53,386 bases of DNA from Bryobacterales bacterium (lineage in GTDB: Bacteria; Acidobacteriota; Terriglobia; Bryobacterales; Bryobacteraceae). The stretch is from NCBI GenBank assembly GCA_025463005.1, contig JAOAPR010000177.1:1-53386 (forward strand). Direction: 5' to 3'. A model generated the notes under the pieces. That model had not been told where the DNA came from. It ran no database searches and was given only the letters and a program-made list of their open reading frames with translations. The translations under genes were made by a program, and so were the position numbers. Position 1 is the stretch's first letter. Each line of letters opens with the position of its first letter. Shown here piece by piece: positions 4,844-49,573 of this stretch.

Positions 4844-5233
4844 ATGGCAGACGATGTAAAGCCGTTAGTAACTGAGCATGAGACAACCGATGCTCCCATT
4901 CGGGCGATTGTGTTCTCGGCGATCGCTCTGTCGGTGACTGCCGCGCTGGTACTCGCCGTAAGCGTCGGCGTCTTCCGCTACTTTGTAGCACACAGGGCCG
5001 AAGTGCCGCCGAACACATTGGTTTCAGGCGATCGACTGGTCCCTCCCGCGCCTCGCGTCGAAGAACATCCTGCAATCGAGTTACAGACTTTACGCCAGCA
5101 GGAGGATCAAATACTGTCTTCGTATGGCTGGATCGACCGCACGGCCGGCATCATCCGGATTCCGATTGACCGGGCGATCGATCTTCAGCTTGAGCGCGGC
5201 TTTCCGACTCGGACGGAGAAACAATCCCGATGA
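4844..5233 (+). CDS. Small single-span membrane protein of the ACIII-caa3 operon, function unknown
   Basis: A 129-residue protein with one strong transmembrane helix (about residues 20-47) and a hydrophilic, proline-containing C-terminal part likely on the periplasmic side (LVPPAPRVEEHPAIELQTLRQQEDQILSSYGW in outline, with RIPIDRAIDLQLERG near the end). No heme, copper or iron-sulfur motif is present. It is 6 nt after actF, and its stop overlaps the SCO gene by ATGA, so it is made together with the respiratory proteins. Short proteins of this kind are common between act and cta genes. I infer an assembly or accessory role and recognise no named family. Confidence 0.75.
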   Translation: MADDVKPLVTEHETTDAPIRAIVFSAIALSVTAALVLAVSVGVFRYFVAHRAEVPPNTLVSGDRLVPPAPRVEEHPAIELQTLRQQEDQILSSYGWIDRTAGIIRIPIDRAIDLQLERGFPTRTEKQSR

Positions 5234-6024
5234 AATATATCGCGCTATGGATTGCTCTGGCAGGCTCGGTTCGCCTTTTGCCCGCGCAGGTGTACGGCCG
5301 TCCACCTATCCTGCGCGACGTGGGGATCGACCAAAAGATGGGAGCGCAATTACCGCTCGATCTTCCCTTCGAGGATGAACACGGCCGCGCAGTGACCCTT
5401 CGCGACTATTCGGGCAAGCCGATCATCCTGGCGCTGGTCTATTATCAATGCCCCTCGTTGTGCAACTTGGTGTTGAACGGAGTGAGCCGAGTGACGCGCG
5501 GGTTGTCCTTCGCTCCCGGTAAAGAATACGAATTCATTGCAGTCAGTTTCGATCCCCGTGAATCCGCGCCCCTCGCCCTCGCTAAAAAGCATTCTCTGAT
5601 GCAGGAGTTCGGACGACCCGGCCCCGAAAACGGCTGGCATTTCCTCACCGATTCCGGTACTTCCGCCAAGATTCTCGCGGATGCGGTGGGTTTTCACTAC
5701 ACCTTTGACAACGCCACCAATCAATTCGCGCATCCCAGTGCGATCCTCATTTTGACCCCGGAGGGCCGCGTTGCGCAGTACTTCTATGGAATCGACTACC
5801 TCGCGCGGGATGTGCGACTTGGCCTGGTCGAGGCATCCCGTAACAACATCGGATCACCGCTGGACCAGGTTCAGCTCTTTTGCTTCCATTACGACCCGTC
5901 TAATGGAAAGTACAGCCTGGCGATCATGAACATACTCCGAGGAGCCGGGCTGGCCACCGTCGCCGCACTGGCGGGCTTCATGCTCCGGATGTTCCGGCGC
6001 GACTGGCGCCCAGGAGGCGGCTAG
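5230..6024 (+). CDS. SCO1/SenC family copper chaperone for cytochrome oxidase
   Basis: A 264-residue thioredoxin-fold protein. The N-terminus has a signal-like segment (residues 1-20), and the copper motif is YYQCPSLC (Cys74, Cys78) with the third ligand at His168 (AHPSAI). SCO proteins deliver copper to, or reduce, the CuA site of oxidase subunit II, which is the next gene. The C-terminus adds a hydrophobic segment (about residues 232-254) followed by a basic tail (MFRRDWRP). It is therefore probably anchored at its C-terminus, a form often seen in ACIII-caa3 clusters. It overlaps the preceding gene by 4 nt, and an AGGAGGCGG near its end is the ribosome site for ctaC. Confidence 0.88.
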   Translation: MKYIALWIALAGSVRLLPAQVYGRPPILRDVGIDQKMGAQLPLDLPFEDEHGRAVTLRDYSGKPIILALVYYQCPSLCNLVLNGVSRVTRGLSFAPGKEYEFIAVSFDPRESAPLALAKKHSLMQEFGRPGPENGWHFLTDSGTSAKILADAVGFHYTFDNATNQFAHPSAILILTPEGRVAQYFYGIDYLARDVRLGLVEASRNNIGSPLDQVQLFCFHYDPSNGKYSLAIMNILRGAGLATVAALAGFMLRMFRRDWRPGGG

Positions 6025-35966: not shown

Positions 35967-36974
35967 TTATTTAGAACCCTTGACGTACCGCTTTAACGAC
36001 TTTGAGCCGACCTCCGCGCCGTAAATCACGCCGTCCGCATCTGCGGCAACTCCTTCCGACGTGCTGGTAGCTGGAAGTGCGCCGGCCGGAACCAGAGGAT
36101 CAGGAATGAAAGCCGTCACCACGCCGTTCCTCGCGCTGCCGATCCGGATACCTCGCTTCCAACCGGGATTGTACCCGTAGCCTTCCTTGTCCGTAGACTC
36201 TGAATCGGTGACATAGAGAATATCGTTCTTGTCGATATAAAGCCCGCTGGGCCGCCCGAATTGTTTCCACTGGTCGAGAAACTTTCCGTCCTGATCGAAG
36301 ATCTGGATGCGATTATTCGCGCGATCGCCGACAAACAGCCGTCCCCGCGCATCGAACGCCAATGCATGCGGCACTTCGAATTCGCGTGGCGCCGATCCGT
36401 GCTTTCCCCATTTCTTGAGGAACTTCCCGTCCTTATTGAACTTCAGAATCTGTGCCGTTCCCATCCCCGGCGTGTGCCCTTCCGCGACAAAAATGTCGCC
36501 GTTGGGAGCGATCGCAACATCATTTGGTTGGTTGAAAGACTCCGGAGCCTCAGTACCGCCGCCCGCCTTGCCCAGCGTCATCAGAACCTTCCCATCCGGA
36601 CTGAACTTAACGACCTGGAACCCCTTGCCGTCCCGCGCCTGCCCATCGGTGATCCAGACGTTGCCGTCTTTATCAACAGCGATGCCATGCGGGAAAAGAA
36701 ACATGCCCGATCCGAAGCTCTTCACGAGTTTTCCGGACACATCGAAGCGCAGGATCGGATCTTCGGTCTTGCCCGCACAACTGTTCGCGCCGCATCGTTC
36801 GGCAACCCACACACTTCTGCCGTCGCGATCGATATCAACCGCGCTGCTCGAGCCCCACGCTCTTCCGTCGGGGAGTTTGGCCCAATTTTCTATCGTCCGA
36901 TAGGGATTGGGTTGAGAGTTGTTCTGGGCGAATACCGTTGCGCCGATCACCACCAGTATCGTGATGTTTTTCAT
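35967..36974 (-). CDS. Secreted NHL-repeat beta-propeller, PAL-like, incomplete metal site
   Basis: A 335-residue protein with a short signal peptide (ITILVVIGATVFAQ) and six NHL blades. Two blades match the zinc-binding strands of peptidyl-alpha-hydroxyglycine alpha-amidating lyase: FPHGIAVDKDGNVWITD and VPHALAFDARGRLFVGDRAN. The third PAL histidine should fall in the last blade, but there the sequence is TSEGVAADADGVIYGAEV, with no His. A pair of Cys (ERCGANSCAG) may form a disulfide. It may be a lyase with a changed site or only a binding propeller. I use ATG 36974; a TTG two codons earlier is less likely. It is divergent from the second propeller gene at 37051. Confidence 0.84.
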   Translation of the reverse strand: MKNITILVVIGATVFAQNNSQPNPYRTIENWAKLPDGRAWGSSSAVDIDRDGRSVWVAERCGANSCAGKTEDPILRFDVSGKLVKSFGSGMFLFPHGIAVDKDGNVWITDGQARDGKGFQVVKFSPDGKVLMTLGKAGGGTEAPESFNQPNDVAIAPNGDIFVAEGHTPGMGTAQILKFNKDGKFLKKWGKHGSAPREFEVPHALAFDARGRLFVGDRANNRIQIFDQDGKFLDQWKQFGRPSGLYIDKNDILYVTDSESTDKEGYGYNPGWKRGIRIGSARNGVVTAFIPDPLVPAGALPATSTSEGVAADADGVIYGAEVGSKSLKRYVKGSK

Positions 36975-36978
36975 GACC

Positions 36979-37007
36979 AATCATTAGAGCATACTCTTAC
37001 CTGTCAA
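36979..37007 (-). promoter_or_regulatory. Possible promoter for a leaderless transcript of the 36974 gene
   Basis: On the minus strand TTGACA (37007-37002) is followed after 16 nt by AATGAT (36985-36980), four of six matching a -10 box. Transcription would begin about at the ATG 36974, giving almost no leader. That agrees with the lack of a ribosome site there. On the plus strand TTGACC (37012-37017) may serve the divergent gene. Both are weak calls by eye. Confidence 0.25.
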
Positions 37008-37050: not shown

Positions 37051-38340
37051 ATGAAACGGAACCTGGGTATCGGTCTGACATTCGTCGCTGTGCTGGCGGC
37101 CCTTGGAATCGGATCCGCCTGGCTGGAGAAAAAAGCCACCGTCGAAGCCGCCGGCGTGCAAGCCCCCAGATTTGAGGTCGACCCGATGTGGCCCAAGCCC
37201 CTGCCAAACCATTGGGTCCAGGGCAACACCATCGGCGTGTCGGTCGATAGTAAGGATCACATCTGGATCATTCATCGCGCCGGCTCACTGGAGGCGATGG
37301 AGACTTACGCCGCCACCAACCGTGCCGAATGCTGCAAGCCCGCTCCTGCCGTCCTCGAGTTTGACGAAGAAGGAAACCTCATCGGCCATTGGGGAGGCGA
37401 AGACGGTCCCGGGTATCAGTGGCCCGCCTCGAACCACGGAATCACGGTCGACTACAAAGGCAACGTGTGGATCGGCGGCAACGGCCGTACCGCGAATGCG
37501 CCGGCCACCGCCGAAACAGCGGGCAACGCTCCTCCAGCCGCCGCCGCGACTCAAACCAAGCAAGCCGCCAAAGCGAAAGCCGCTCCCGGCGGTCCCCCGC
37601 TCTATCACGACAGCATGGTGCTGAAGTTCACCCAGGAAGGAAAATTCCTGATGTCGATCGGCAAGACCGGCGCTAGTCAAGGCAGTAACGACACGGAAAA
37701 CCTGGGACTCCCCGCCAAGATTTTTGTCGATCCCAAGACCAATGAGCTGTACGTCGCTGACGGCTACGGTAACAAACGCGTCATCGTGTTCGACGCCGAT
37801 ACCGGCAAATATAAACGGCATTGGGGAGCGTACGGCAACAAGCCGGATGACACCAATCTCGGACCCTACCGTCCCGACGCACCGGCCGCGCAGCAGTTCC
37901 GCAACCCGGTCCACTGCGCCGAGCTCTCGGTCGACGGTCTGCTCTATGTTTGCGATCGAGTAAATGACCGCATTCAGGTGTTCAAACCGGACGGGACCTT
38001 CGTCAAAGAAACCTTTATCGCGAAGAACACGCTTGGCGACGGTTCCGTGTGGGACATCGCCTTCTCTAAAGATCCGCAGCAGAAATTCATGTATCTGGTG
38101 GATGGCGCTAACGAGAAGATTTACGTTATGCAGCGCGAGACCCTCGAGATCCTGACCAGCTTCGGCGACGGCGGCCGCCAGCCCGGCCAGTTCTACGCCG
38201 TCCATAGCATCGCCACGGATTCCAAGGGCAACATCTTCACTACGGAAACCTACCGCGGCCAGCGAGTGCAGAAGTTCGTCTACAAAGGGCTGGCAGCCGT
38301 CGCCAAGAAAGACCAGGGCGTGGTCTGGCCCAAGAAGTAG
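37051..38340 (+). CDS. Secreted NHL-repeat beta-propeller, PAL-like, with three conserved histidines
   Basis: A 429-residue protein with an N-terminal hydrophobic signal or anchor (about residues 7-24, GLTFVAVLAALGIGSAWL) and NHL blades. His129 (NHGITVDYKGNVWIGG), His288 (VHCAELSVDGLLYVCDR) and His385 (VHSIATDSKGNIFTTE) each begin a blade in the way the three zinc histidines of peptidyl-alpha-hydroxyglycine alpha-amidating lyase do. The spacing 288-385 equals that of PAL closely; the first gap is larger because of an Ala/Pro/Lys-rich insertion (about 150-185). A CC pair lies at AECCKP. It could be a lyase acting on hydroxylated substrates. The stop is followed at once by a hairpin. Confidence 0.85.
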   Translation: MKRNLGIGLTFVAVLAALGIGSAWLEKKATVEAAGVQAPRFEVDPMWPKPLPNHWVQGNTIGVSVDSKDHIWIIHRAGSLEAMETYAATNRAECCKPAPAVLEFDEEGNLIGHWGGEDGPGYQWPASNHGITVDYKGNVWIGGNGRTANAPATAETAGNAPPAAAATQTKQAAKAKAAPGGPPLYHDSMVLKFTQEGKFLMSIGKTGASQGSNDTENLGLPAKIFVDPKTNELYVADGYGNKRVIVFDADTGKYKRHWGAYGNKPDDTNLGPYRPDAPAAQQFRNPVHCAELSVDGLLYVCDRVNDRIQVFKPDGTFVKETFIAKNTLGDGSVWDIAFSKDPQQKFMYLVDGANEKIYVMQRETLEILTSFGDGGRQPGQFYAVHSIATDSKGNIFTTETYRGQRVQKFVYKGLAAVAKKDQGVVWPKK

Positions 38341-44827: not shown

Positions 44828-46147
44828 ATGGATAGCAGATTACGTCGTCTGGGACTGCTGATTTCGGCAATCCTCCCCGGTCTTTCGATCGCCGCAGATT
44901 TAAACATCAAAGCGCCCACGTTCGCCAAGGACGTTGCTCCGATTTTTCAGGAAAAGTGCCAGGCATGCCACCGCGCGGGATCGATGGCTCCCATGTCGCT
45001 GGTGACGTATGACGAAACGCGTCCCTGGGTGAAGGCCATCAAGGAGCGTGTAGTCACGCGCACCATGCCGCCGTGGCACCTCGATAAGACTGTCGGCATC
45101 CAGCATTTTCAGAACGACATTTCACTGAGCGACGAGCAGATCAGCTTGATCGCGAAGTGGGTGGATGCGGGCGCTCCTCTGGGTGACCCGAAGGACATGC
45201 CTGCGCCGAAACAATGGCCGAAAGACGACGGCTGGCAGCTCGCGGAGAAGTTCGGGCCGCCGGACCTGATCATCAAGTCCGAGCCGTACACCATGCCGGC
45301 CCACGGACAGGACGTGTGGTTCAAGCCGCTCACGCAAATTCCGCTGACCGAGCCCCGATGGGTTCGCGCCGTGGAAATGCGGCCCTCGACTCCCGCGGGA
45401 CGCAGGATCACCCACCATGCCCTCGCTTTTCTTCAACAGGAGGAGCCGGGCGCGAACAGCGATGCCGCTCCGGGCGTCGGAACGCAGGGCCTGCTCATGG
45501 AATGGGCCGTCAACAAGAACTATGACATCTACCGTCCCAACACAGGAAAGCTCTTGCTCCCCGGCGCGCGCATCTGGTGGGAGGAGCATCTGCACGCCGT
45601 TGGCGAGGAAATCCGCGATCACGTGGAGCTGGCGGTGTACCTCTACCCCAAAGGCGAAGAGCCAAAGTATCGGACCACGCTCACACTGTTTTCTGCATCG
45701 CCCGGAAACCAACTTGATATTCCGCCCAACACCGTCGCGCAGACCGAGGGTTATCAGTTGCTGAAGAACCCGGCTCGTTTGGAAAATTTCCAGCCGCACA
45801 TGCACCTTCGCGGCAAGTCGATGTTGCTCGAAGCAATTCTTCCCGATGGCAGCAAGCGGACGCTCAGCTACGTGGATCATTTCAATTTCAACTGGATGAT
45901 CAACTACATCTATACGGACGACGAGGCTCCGGTATTGCCCAAAGGCACGTTGATCCACGTAGTCGCCTCGCACGACAACACTCCGAACAACAAGAACAAT
46001 CCGGATCCGAACCAGTGGGTGGGCTGGGGCGATCGCACCGTGGATGAAATGGCTCACGCCTGGGTCAATGTCACCTATATTTCGGAAGACGACTATCAGG
46101 AGTACGTCGCCAAGCACCCGCCTGCCCGGTCAGTTGCACAAAGATAA
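44828..46147 (+). CDS. Cytochrome c fused to a PHM-like type II copper monooxygenase
   Basis: A 439-residue exported protein (signal about 1-23). Residues 30-120 form a cytochrome c domain with CQACH (Cys44, Cys47, His48). The C-terminal half has the full copper ligand pattern of peptidylglycine alpha-hydroxylating/dopamine beta-monooxygenases: HH at 196-197, HLH at 254-256, HMH at 324-326 and Met408 (DEMAHAW). In rat PHM the ligands are H107, H108, H172, H242, H244 and M314; the 70-residue gap between the third His and the HxH pair is the same here. PHM inserts one oxygen atom at a C-H bond next to a heteroatom. The cytochrome may replace ascorbate as donor. It overlaps the next gene by one base (TAATG). 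Confidence 0.86.
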   Translation: MDSRLRRLGLLISAILPGLSIAADLNIKAPTFAKDVAPIFQEKCQACHRAGSMAPMSLVTYDETRPWVKAIKERVVTRTMPPWHLDKTVGIQHFQNDISLSDEQISLIAKWVDAGAPLGDPKDMPAPKQWPKDDGWQLAEKFGPPDLIIKSEPYTMPAHGQDVWFKPLTQIPLTEPRWVRAVEMRPSTPAGRRITHHALAFLQQEEPGANSDAAPGVGTQGLLMEWAVNKNYDIYRPNTGKLLLPGARIWWEEHLHAVGEEIRDHVELAVYLYPKGEEPKYRTTLTLFSASPGNQLDIPPNTVAQTEGYQLLKNPARLENFQPHMHLRGKSMLLEAILPDGSKRTLSYVDHFNFNWMINYIYTDDEAPVLPKGTLIHVVASHDNTPNNKNNPDPNQWVGWGDRTVDEMAHAWVNVTYISEDDYQEYVAKHPPARSVAQR

Positions 46148-47001: not shown

Positions 47002-49068
47002 ATGCATAGAGGAATCGGATTGCTGCTCGCGGCGCTTGCGGCATCAGCCTTGGCCCAGCAACCCTCGACCAAAAACGGAGAGTGGCCTTACTACACCGCC
47101 GATCTGAAAGGCACCAAGTACTCGCCTCTCGATCAGATCAACGCGAGCAACTTCAACCAGCTCGAAGTAGCGTGGCGCTTCAAAACCGATAATTTCGGCA
47201 CTCGCCCCGAATACAAGCTGGAGGGAACGCCCGTGATGGTGAAAGGCGTGCTGTACACGACTGCAGGCACGCGCCGTTCCGTGGTCGCGCTCGATGCAAA
47301 AACCGGTGAGGTGATGTGGTCGTACAGCCTGCGCGAAGGAAATCGCGCCGCCATCGCGCCGCGCCAGCTCTCGGGCCGAGGCGTCTCCTATTGGACCGAC
47401 GGCAAAGGCGACGACCGTGTCGTGTTCGTTACCACCGGATACCGCCTGGTGGTTTTGAACGCGCACACCGGTCAGCCGATCACGAACTTCGGTAAAAACG
47501 GAATCGTCGATCTGAAAGAAGGCATGGTCACCGCCGCGGGGCTGCAGATCGATCTCGAAACCGGCGAAGCCGGTCTGCACGCTACCCCTCTGGTGGTGAA
47601 GGACGTCGTGATCGTGGGATCGTCCTTCAAAGAAGGCATGACCGTTGTCACGCATAACAACACCAAGGGCAACGTGCGCGCTTACGACGTCCGAAGCGGC
47701 AAGCTGCTGTGGACGTTCAACACCATTCCGCGCCCCGGCGAGTTCGGCAACGAAACTTGGGAGAACGGATCGTGGGCGACCAACGGCAACACCGGCGTGT
47801 GGACCCAGATGACGGTCGACGAAGAGCTCGGACTGGTGTATCTGCCGGTGGAGTCTCCCACCTCGGATTTCTACGGCGGACATCGCCCGGGAGACAACCT
47901 CTTCGCGGAAAGTTTGGTTTGCGTGGATCTGAAGACCGGCAAACGCAAGTGGCATTTCCAGATCGTGCATCACCCCATCTGGGATTACGATTTGTCCTCC
48001 GCGCCTATTCTGGCCGATATCACGGTGGGCAGTAAAGCGATCAAGGCCGTGGCGCTCCCGAGTAAACAGGCGTTCCTTTACGTGTTCGATCGCGTCACGG
48101 GCCAGCCCGTATGGCCGATAGAGGAGCGACCCGTTCCGCAGTCGGACGTGCCCGGCGAAAAGACGTCGCCCACGCAGCCGTTCCCCACCAAGCCTCCGGC
48201 CTACGGCCGAAACTACTTGAAAATTCCCGACGACCTGATCGACTATACGCCGGAGATGCGCGCGCAGGCCCGCGATAACATCGCGCGCTACAAGAATGGC
48301 CCGATGTTCCTGCCGCCCGTGGTTGGCGACGCGAAGGGATTCATCGGAGCCATGGGGCTCGGCACCGCCAGCGGCGGCACGAACTGGCCCGGCGCCGGTT
48401 ACGATCCCGAGACGCATATCGTGTACGCGCAAGCGAATCAGTCCGCTGTGTTCCCGGTCTCGTTGCGGACTCCGCCCGAAGGATTCTCCGACATCCGCTA
48501 TGTGATGGGACGGAACGATACGGAATTTCGCGTGTCGGAAGGGCCGGGATTCGGCAGCGCGGCGGATGCTCCGCAACAGCGTCGTCCCGCAGTGACCGCA
48601 CCCGCAGCGCCTCCCGCGGCCCCTATCGGAGCGCTGACTGTCCAGGGCCTCTCCATTGTGAAGCCGCCATATGCGGTGATCTCCGCAGTCAGTCTCGATC
48701 GCGGCGACATGCAATGGCAGGTGCCTTACGGAGAGACGCCCGATGCGGTCCGCAATCATCCAGCGCTCAAGGGGATGAACATCCCGAACACTGGACAACC
48801 CGGCAGCGTGGGCCTGGTGGTGACGAAGACCCTGGTGATCCTGGGCGACAGCCAGATCACCACGACGCCTGCGCATCCGCGCGGCGCGATGCTTCGGGCG
48901 TACGATAAGGCCACGGGCAAAGAGGTCGGCTCGGTGTTGATGCCCGCCCCGCAAAGCGGATCGCCCATGACGTACATGGTCGACGGCAAGCAATATATCG
49001 TGGTCGCCGTCAGTGGAGGCGCCTATTCAGGCGAGTATATTGCCTATAGCCTGCCGTCGAATAACTGA
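47002..49068 (+). CDS. PQQ-dependent dehydrogenase (quinoprotein propeller)
   Basis: A 688-residue exported quinoprotein (signal about 1-18, ending SALAQ). It shows the family start WPYYTADLKGTKYSPLDQIN and repeated tryptophan-docking strands such as GKLLWTFNTIPRPGEFGNETWENGSW (core RPGEFGNETWENGSW) and VDLKTGKRKWHFQIVHHPIWDYDL in its FQIVHHPIWDYDL part. It oxidises alcohols or sugars in the periplasm and gives electrons to cytochrome c. The vicinal Cys pair of methanol and ethanol dehydrogenases is not present. AAGGAGG stands before the ATG. The cytochrome c gene follows directly, and the set is collinear with the copper monooxygenase. Confidence 0.93.
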   Translation: MHRGIGLLLAALAASALAQQPSTKNGEWPYYTADLKGTKYSPLDQINASNFNQLEVAWRFKTDNFGTRPEYKLEGTPVMVKGVLYTTAGTRRSVVALDAKTGEVMWSYSLREGNRAAIAPRQLSGRGVSYWTDGKGDDRVVFVTTGYRLVVLNAHTGQPITNFGKNGIVDLKEGMVTAAGLQIDLETGEAGLHATPLVVKDVVIVGSSFKEGMTVVTHNNTKGNVRAYDVRSGKLLWTFNTIPRPGEFGNETWENGSWATNGNTGVWTQMTVDEELGLVYLPVESPTSDFYGGHRPGDNLFAESLVCVDLKTGKRKWHFQIVHHPIWDYDLSSAPILADITVGSKAIKAVALPSKQAFLYVFDRVTGQPVWPIEERPVPQSDVPGEKTSPTQPFPTKPPAYGRNYLKIPDDLIDYTPEMRAQARDNIARYKNGPMFLPPVVGDAKGFIGAMGLGTASGGTNWPGAGYDPETHIVYAQANQSAVFPVSLRTPPEGFSDIRYVMGRNDTEFRVSEGPGFGSAADAPQQRRPAVTAPAAPPAAPIGALTVQGLSIVKPPYAVISAVSLDRGDMQWQVPYGETPDAVRNHPALKGMNIPNTGQPGSVGLVVTKTLVILGDSQITTTPAHPRGAMLRAYDKATGKEVGSVLMPAPQSGSPMTYMVDGKQYIVVAVSGGAYSGEYIAYSLPSNN

Positions 49069-49147: not shown

Positions 49148-49573
49148 GTGCCCCACGCGGCGATGTTCCTTGTCGTCCTTATTACCTTCTTGCTCACCGC
49201 GCAAACCACGCGGTCGGTATGGGACGGAGTCTATACCTCCGAACAAGCTGCGCGCGGAGCCTCGCTCTACGCGAAAGACTGCGCATCCTGCCATGGAACC
49301 GCGCTCACCGGCGGAGAATCCGCGCCGCCTCTCACTGGTGGCGAGTTCTTCTCCAACTGGAACGGCCTCACCGTCGGCGACTTGTTCGAGAGAATTCGTA
49401 TCTCAATGCCGGCTGACCGCCCCGGACGGCTCACGCGCGAGCAGGACGCCGATATTCTCGCGTTCATGCTCAGCGTCAGCCAGTTCCCGCCGGGCAAGAC
49501 AGAATTAGCGCGTCAAACGGAAGCTCTAAAGCAGATCCGGTTCGATTCAACGAAGCCGGCCGACAAGAATTGA
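49148..49573 (+). CDS. Small secreted cytochrome c
   Basis: About 141 residues: a signal segment (AAMFLVVLITFLLTAQ), then one class I cytochrome c domain with CASCH and the later SMPADRPGRL whose Met is the likely heme ligand. It probably takes electrons from the PQQ dehydrogenase. The start is uncertain: I use GTG 49148; ATG 49163 and GTG 49070 are in the same frame. A perfect GGAGGAA (49127-49133) points to ATG 49140, which is in another frame, so a small indel or a changed start is possible near the 5' end. Confidence 0.8.
   Translation: MPHAAMFLVVLITFLLTAQTTRSVWDGVYTSEQAARGASLYAKDCASCHGTALTGGESAPPLTGGEFFSNWNGLTVGDLFERIRISMPADRPGRLTREQDADILAFMLSVSQFPPGKTELARQTEALKQIRFDSTKPADKN

Follow-up and report, generated by a model that had tools for sequence, protein, structure and literature searches.

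A cytochrome c domain fused to a PHM-type copper core, with a linked partner gene, in a Bryobacterales genome

Peptidylglycine alpha-hydroxylating monooxygenase (PHM) and dopamine beta-hydroxylase (DBH) are known from animals, where they depend on ascorbate; a copper core of this type serves there in the synthesis of peptide hormones. The PHM core has disulfides, and an Arg ahead of its HxH pair binds the glycine carboxylate of the peptide substrate; in the peptidylglycine lyase (PAL) half of animal PAM, three His bind zinc. For DBH, PMC4846438 describes a core with disulfides, in which CuH is the electron-transfer site, CuM is the site of O2 binding and hydroxylation, and the two electrons are supplied by ascorbate. 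The passages of that paper on the DOMON domain of DBH place it in a class that includes heme-binding members and report that no heme ligands or heme pocket were found in it. The two coppers lie ~11 Å apart in the PHM structures treated in PMC6123673, and PMC8812541 describes a double jelly-roll relation for PHM.

Here, we compare these enzymes with a protein of 439 residues encoded in the window, by which we mean the whole stretch of 53,386 nucleotides of Bryobacterales DNA that was analysed. Its reading frame starts at an ATG preceded by AAGGAG, and the coordinates in Table 1 run to the end of the stop codon. The PHM-like protein begins with a signal sequence, read by eye, and has the features of a c-type cytochrome, a CxxCH motif (CQACH) and a distal Met (M80), ahead of a copper core whose ligands match those of rat PHM (1PHM and others) in kind and order. 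Given the signal sequences, likewise read by eye, and the covalent heme motif, the protein would lie outside the cytoplasm. The only Cys residues in the chain are C44 and C47, the heme pair, so that disulfides, a feature of the animal PHM and DBH cores, are absent.

Table 1. Positions of the fusion gene, its predicted functional residues, and neighbouring genes in the window
Feature	Position	Strand	Remarks
Second PAL-related propeller	35967..36980	-	Glu replaces third His; two of three His kept
PAL-like NHL beta-propeller	37051..38340	+	H129, H288, and H385 in register with the three rat PAL His
Cytochrome c-PHM-type copper core fusion gene	44828..46147	+	439 aa; open reading frame, fold, and profile evidence
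CQACH heme c attachment motif, residues 44-48	44957..44971	+	Invariant in A1 and A3
M80, candidate axial heme ligand (MPPWH, 80-84)	45065..45067	+	Invariant in A1 and A3; axial role inferred
H196-H197, putative CuH ligands (PHM H107-H108)	45413..45418	+	On HH of rat PHM in profile alignments
H254, putative third CuH ligand (PHM H172)	45587..45589	+	On His of QVHY in rat PHM; H256 is a non-invariant neighbour
H324-M-H326, putative CuM ligands (PHM H242, H244)	45797..45805	+	On HTH of rat PHM in profile alignments
M408, putative CuM Met ligand (PHM M314)	46049..46051	+	Invariant in A1 and A3; M314 equivalence from fold and order
Partner gene, 281 aa	46147..46992	+	Signal sequence, two beta-sandwich domains, conserved C268-C269-W270 near C-terminus
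PQQ-dependent dehydrogenase	47002..49068	+	PF01011, E 2.1e-180; adjoins module in some relatives
Small cytochrome c	49163..49573	+	PF13442, E 4.2e-11; internal ATG chosen, open reading frame from 49013

To place the protein, we used alignments of its relatives. A scan of public genomes yielded 53 loci, mostly labelled Acidobacteria, Terriglobia, or Bryobacteraceae, with others from Gemmatimonadetes, Planctomycetota, Pseudomonadales, and further groups; the nearest relatives are from Bryobacteraceae or Terriglobia. Alignment A1 has 57 rows, the window protein and 56 sequences from the 53 loci, and omits three incomplete reading frames (L045, L038 at 6376, and L048 at 10196), frames with fewer than ~300 matched residues, and all copies from the window's own genome. 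The more diverse A3 has 34 rows, comprising the window protein, eight own-genome copies, 19 of 20 further relatives from other genomes of the phylum, Acidobacteriota (L105 was excluded for an internal stop), and six sequences from the scan loci, with the other rows 29 to 62% identical to the window protein.

The copper domain went undetected in single-sequence searches of NCBIfam, PDB sequences, and Pfam; no copper-monooxygenase Pfam model matched the window protein at E<=1, and its match to Pfam cytochrome c, at 22.5 bits, is below the gathering score of 27. Against the PDB, the A1 profile matched rat PHM at E 0.0034, and the A3 profile matched rat PHM at E 1.2e-10 and human DBH at E 1.5e-6. 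In the alignments to rat PHM, HH pairs with HH, H254 with the His of QVHY, and HMH with HTH, so that the three His of the CuH set and, of the CuM set of two His and a Met, H324 and H326 have direct counterparts. A profile of the C-terminal copper domain (A4) did not find PHM or DBH, returning only chance matches at E 1.2; the equivalence of M408 with M314 is therefore drawn from fold and order. The Pfam model Cu2_monoox_C (PF03712) matched 21 of the 34 A3 rows at E<=0.01 and thus already reaches parts of the family, while NCBIfam matched none of the 34 at the same threshold.

The fold points the same way. An AlphaFold model of the PHM-like protein (mean pLDDT 86.3, pTM 0.82) is helical to about residue 115 and beta-rich from about 145 to 420. 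When it was searched against the PDB with Foldseek, ranks 1 to 31 were all DBH or PHM structures (E 2.3e-13 to 2.3e-8; TM 0.50 to 0.65 on the PHM length), human DBH (4ZEL) being the best match at the first of these values and the PHM structures being 12 to 15% identical to the model. The model thus predicts the two-domain beta fold of the copper core. The next matches are viral capsid proteins, which agrees with the double jelly-roll relation that PMC8812541 reports for PHM. Structure prediction had been proposed in the preliminary description as a check on whether the two copper sites form ~11 Å apart and the heme lies near one of them, with a model whose ligands stay apart as a refutation; the fold was recovered, and the convergence of the ligands in space is addressed only through that fold match. 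As in DBH, an accessory domain precedes the copper core, but it is a c-type cytochrome domain in the window protein and an Ig-like DOMON without heme in DBH. The fold and ligands themselves are of a known kind.

Ten residues, C44, C47, H48, M80, H196, H197, H254, H324, H326, and M408, are invariant in both A1 (57/57) and A3 (34/34), and the retention of all six ligands together with CxxCH and M80 is not chance. The preliminary description, made from the window sequence, had listed a complete and ordered set of PHM-type copper ligands at these positions, in one chain with a heme c domain, and the alignments uphold both points. It had left the third His as 254 or 256, the two His of an HLH; this is now settled as H254, since H254 is invariant in A1 and A3 and H256 is not, and a further row count has H254 in 70/70 covered rows and H256 in 58/71. 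The 70 residues that it counted from the third His to the HxH pair are found between H254 and H324, and we take the step in PHM, H172 to H242, to be 70 as well. Free variation of the ligands among close homologues, which it had suggested looking for, was not seen in A1 or A3.

The heme motif is kept just as strictly across the wider family. Every one of the 148 rows covering CxxCH and M80 has both; 70 of these rows are without the partner gene described below, 55 have a partner with a Cys-Cys-Trp (CCW) motif, 21 have a partner without the Cys pair, and two have a partner with the pair (CC). Because the profiles behind these 148 rows include the heme domain, the Pfam copper-domain model was used as an independent test on 197 genomes of the phylum at E<=1e-6. 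It gave nine matches in seven genomes, and in all nine open reading frames a CxxCH precedes the HH pair. As judged from these sequences, the heme domain is not an accidental attachment. One could propose that the monooxygenase is still fed by a small reductant and that the heme domain is a structural or docking module, much as no heme ligands or pocket were found in the DOMON domain of DBH (PMC4846438), although its class includes proteins that bind heme. A domain that is merely structural would not need CxxCH and M80, however, and we regard this proposal as very unlikely.

On balance, we favour the reading that the window protein, located in the periplasm or secreted, is a dicopper monooxygenase with the PHM/DBH fold. 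It would use its covalent heme c as reductant instead of free ascorbate and would act together with the partner protein. With heme and both coppers presumed bound, the fused heme would receive electrons from periplasmic c-type cytochromes and pass them to CuH (H196, H197, and H254) and on to CuM (H324, H326, and M408), where O2 would hydroxylate a small molecule at a C-H bond. The role of the partner would be that of a subunit or a substrate-delivery protein.

The partner is closely linked to the PHM-like gene. In the window, its ATG overlaps the last base of the PHM-like stop codon by one base, and it adjoins the PHM-like gene, on either side, at 48 of the 53 scan loci. Its model (pLDDT 89.7) is almost entirely beta; a fold search gave weak, generic Ig-like matches (best E 1.3e-4, TM on the query <=0.29), and Pfam gave weak PKD-type matches for 24 of 49 rows at E<=1, the best at 0.00091. 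No match to the partner was found in plasmids. Among the 197 genomes of the phylum, it occurs in 18, all of which are among the 42 genomes that the A1 profile matches at E<=1e-20. The 84 partner matches listed correspond to 78 places in those 18 genomes, and, among the matches listed, the partner lies beside a PHM-like gene at 75 of the 78. These 75 consist of 55 at most 1.5 kb away from a listed PHM-like gene, one own-genome copy (L060), 18 that were paired on reading the DNA, and one (L073) whose contig starts with the last part of a PHM-like gene. At two further places (L075 and L078), the partner is within ~140 bases of a contig end. At the last (L072, 3152-4075), no PHM-like gene was found in 3.1 kb on one side or in the opposite ~1.2 kb, where the contig ends, and this partner standing alone counts against the favoured reading.

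There are also PHM-like genes without a partner. In the DNA examined, five scan loci lack it (L004, L005, L022, L023, and L052), and the first four of these, which are close relatives of the window protein, count against the favoured reading, as do the 72 of 154 distinct rows of the wider family with no partner beside them. Rows of the latter kind largely retain the ligands where covered (H196 and H197 in 68/71, H324 and H326 in 61/65, and M408 in 57/59), and several of those without some ligand are fragments or weak matches.

Residues around the ligands were compared with partner type. Where the partner has CC or CCW, 57 of 58 covered rows carry H410; where it is without the Cys pair, only one of 21 does. 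In the CCW rows, H256 is found in 52/56 and H410 in 55/56. The CCW exception for H410 (L037 at 8558) was paired automatically with its neighbour's partner, and the other exception (L045) has both gene and partner split over open reading frames. We considered the association of H410 with the Cys pair as a mark of contact between the partner and CuM and rejected it; H410 needs only four changes on a 141-row tree, so that a single inherited event may account for nearly all of it, and the association is accordingly not used as evidence. Separately, M408 is kept in PHM-like proteins whose partner is without the Cys pair (L076, L077, L079, L083, L085 to L090, and others), and Asn replaces Glu407 in 11 of the 21 covered rows of this type. 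At L024 (1698-3410), the partner reading frame has a C-terminal extension that, by eye, resembles an alpha/beta hydrolase.

These features bear on whether the copper core is catalytic at all. A non-catalytic copper-binding or sensory protein, with heme and copper serving copper handling, might be expected to carry residues suited to metal transfer, and the frequent extra His near the ligands (H256 and H410, each two residues after a ligand in the window protein, one per copper site) and the conserved Cys pair of the partner could fit this. An invariant set of six ligands in two sites, up to ~30 copies per genome, and dehydrogenase neighbours fit catabolism better, and a role in copper handling is in our judgment most improbable.

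Copy number places the window protein in a large bacterial family. The window's own genome has 15 stretches matching the PHM-like protein, and six genomes reached through the loci have 31, 19, 15, 5, 1, and 1 rows, the first three of which merge to 30, 16, and 13 places. In the scans of the phylum, where no more than about 8 PHM-like and 12 partner candidates were scored in many genomes, copy numbers per genome are lower bounds. Two copies are broken. At L053 (labelled Pseudomonadales), the heme half (441-1589) and the copper half (5083-5847) lie ~3.5 kb apart, the break falling just before the HH pair and the gap holding a subtilase gene on the other strand, so that the sequence looks like an interrupted gene. 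The own-genome copy at L060 is split over overlapping frames (827-1465 and 1432-2175) beside a whole partner reading frame, probably through a frameshift or an assembly error.

Linkage to other genes was counted for 69 PHM-like genes in four genomes, the window's (G000, at 10 places) and the three of the six with most copies. Pieces of one gene were merged by coordinates, and weak or partial own-genome rows (C32 and C93) and a short row (C6:53540 of G198) were dropped. The window, which prompted the tests for PQQ dehydrogenase and PAL-like genes, is included in the counts. A PQQ dehydrogenase lies within 5 kb of 19 of the 69 genes against ~5.6 expected, the expected values in these tests being somewhat low because genome sizes were rounded and the PQQ dehydrogenase totals are at-least counts. 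The linkage is partial, with 6/10 in G000, 3/16 in G198, 0/13 in G201, and 10/30 in G202. The excess speaks for the favoured reading; the 0/13 in G201, and the chance that catabolic genes cluster for other reasons, speak against it. The window's genome holds a large set of such genes, at least 53 places matching PF01011 after merging.

In the window, the PQQ dehydrogenase and a small cytochrome c are the next genes after the partner, and in this lineage the electrons for the fused heme would perhaps come from that cytochrome, three genes on, fed by the dehydrogenase. The same two genes can be read as an outward electron chain, in which case the heme c would be a built-in acceptor, with copper oxidising the substrate and electrons leaving to cytochromes, as in a dehydrogenase. 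PQQ dehydrogenases with a fused cytochrome c domain near two other own-genome copies (L152 and L157) would suit such a flow. The invariant CuM set of two His and a Met is, however, the O2-binding and hydroxylation site in PHM and DBH, as set out in the active-site description of PMC4846438, and we think an acceptor role unlikely. Other neighbours were seen at two of the partnerless loci, a DUF1552 gene near the PHM-like gene of L004 (3536-4945) and a DUF1592/1588/1585 gene near that of L005 (1-1005).

Upstream of the PHM-like gene, the window has a PAL-like gene at 37051; genes for an outer-membrane receptor and two metallo-hydrolases, on the other strand, come between them. The PAL-like protein has a gene of its own. 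With a profile of the PAL-like family (A5, 16 rows), rat PAL (3FVZ) was matched at E 1.7e-47 in a single stretch that pairs profile positions 53-344 with chain positions 23-321. This alignment places three His and an Arg in register, and the Met before the last His of PAL is not kept. H129 and H288 are invariant in A5, and the third His occurs in nine of the 16 rows, the 37051 protein included, which by alignment would have the three His of the PAL zinc positions on an NHL propeller. Four other NHL chains (Thin and three of TRIM71) outscored PAL with A5, in several short stretches each, so the PAL-like reading is based on the unbroken match together with the three His. Propellers of the second type, like that at 35967-36980, are found near PHM-like genes in L001, L006, L011, L036, L080, and L152.

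Gene order in relatives brings these parts together. In five loci (L001, L006, L011, L012, and L015), with PHM-like proteins 70 to 87% identical to that of the window, the PAL-like gene, PHM-like gene, partner, PQQ dehydrogenase, and cytochrome c follow one another on one strand, and both halves of animal PAM therefore lie together there. At L012 the pair of PHM-like gene and partner occurs twice, and L018 has the same five-gene order, its PAL-like gene truncated where the contig stops. On contig C176 of the window's genome, a PQQ dehydrogenase gene lies next to a PAL-like gene, and PHM-like genes flank the two within 7 kb, one on each side. The arrangement is not general. At 90% identity, L003 carries the partner followed by PQQ dehydrogenase and cytochrome c genes, but no PAL-like gene was found in the DNA examined, and L002 has the partner only, with no PAL-like gene or PQQ dehydrogenase within 6 kb on each side, which counts against the favoured reading. 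In the DNA examined, a PAL-like reading frame is present at nine of the 53 scan loci and directly precedes the PHM-like gene at five. Linkage of PHM-like and PAL-like genes across the whole family was rejected, with 7 of 69 genes having a PAL-like gene within 5 kb (2.9 expected) and 11 of 69 within 10 kb (5.2 expected); given this weak enrichment, the PAL link belongs to the window's lineage and not to the family.

The continuous match to most of rat PAL, the three His in register, and the PAL-like gene directly upstream in those five relatives raise the idea of a bacterial PAM, in which the PHM-like and 37051 proteins would amidate glycine-extended peptides or N-acylglycines and release glyoxylate. 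Against it, the Arg that rat PHM has two residues before HxH aligns, in the A1 profile alignment, with Gln322, so that glycine-extended peptides are not the expected substrate; the better scores of Thin and TRIM71 and the weak overall enrichment of PAL-like genes also weigh against it. We consider a bacterial PAM decidedly unlikely. With its fused heme c domain and separate partner protein, the window system differs from PHM, and we do not file the protein as a peptidylglycine-specific PHM.

Under the favoured monooxygenase reading, the hydroxylated product in the window lineage would probably pass to the PAL-like protein, the PQQ dehydrogenase, or both, and the PAL-like neighbour weakly suggests a substrate carbon next to nitrogen or oxygen. 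As a speculative extension, which may well not hold, the system could be a counterpart of PAM coupled to the respiratory chain. Outside the cytoplasm, a PHM-like oxygenase driven by heme c, with a dedicated Ig-like subunit, would hydroxylate a carbon adjacent to N or O, the PAL-like protein would cleave the adduct as a zinc lyase, and the PQQ dehydrogenase would oxidise the released carbonyl or alcohol and return electrons through the cytochrome c to the oxygenase, making a self-fuelling periplasmic dealkylation pathway with paralogues for different substrates.

Open-access PMC literature, covered by titles and abstracts (subscription papers and preprints lying outside this scope), yielded no account of the heme fusion, of the partner, or of this gene order with a PAL-like gene, which is no proof of absence; the word peptidylglycine does not occur in two papers on Acidobacteria (PMC5900883 and PMC6784897). 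The family adds a large bacterial branch of the PHM/DBH type with heme built into the chain. Such a heme could serve as a built-in donor that is visible by optical methods, so that electrons might be followed on their way to the two coppers and from one to the other. Concrete proteins to test together with it are the partner and the PAL-like neighbour, and the family bears on what soil Acidobacteria oxidise.
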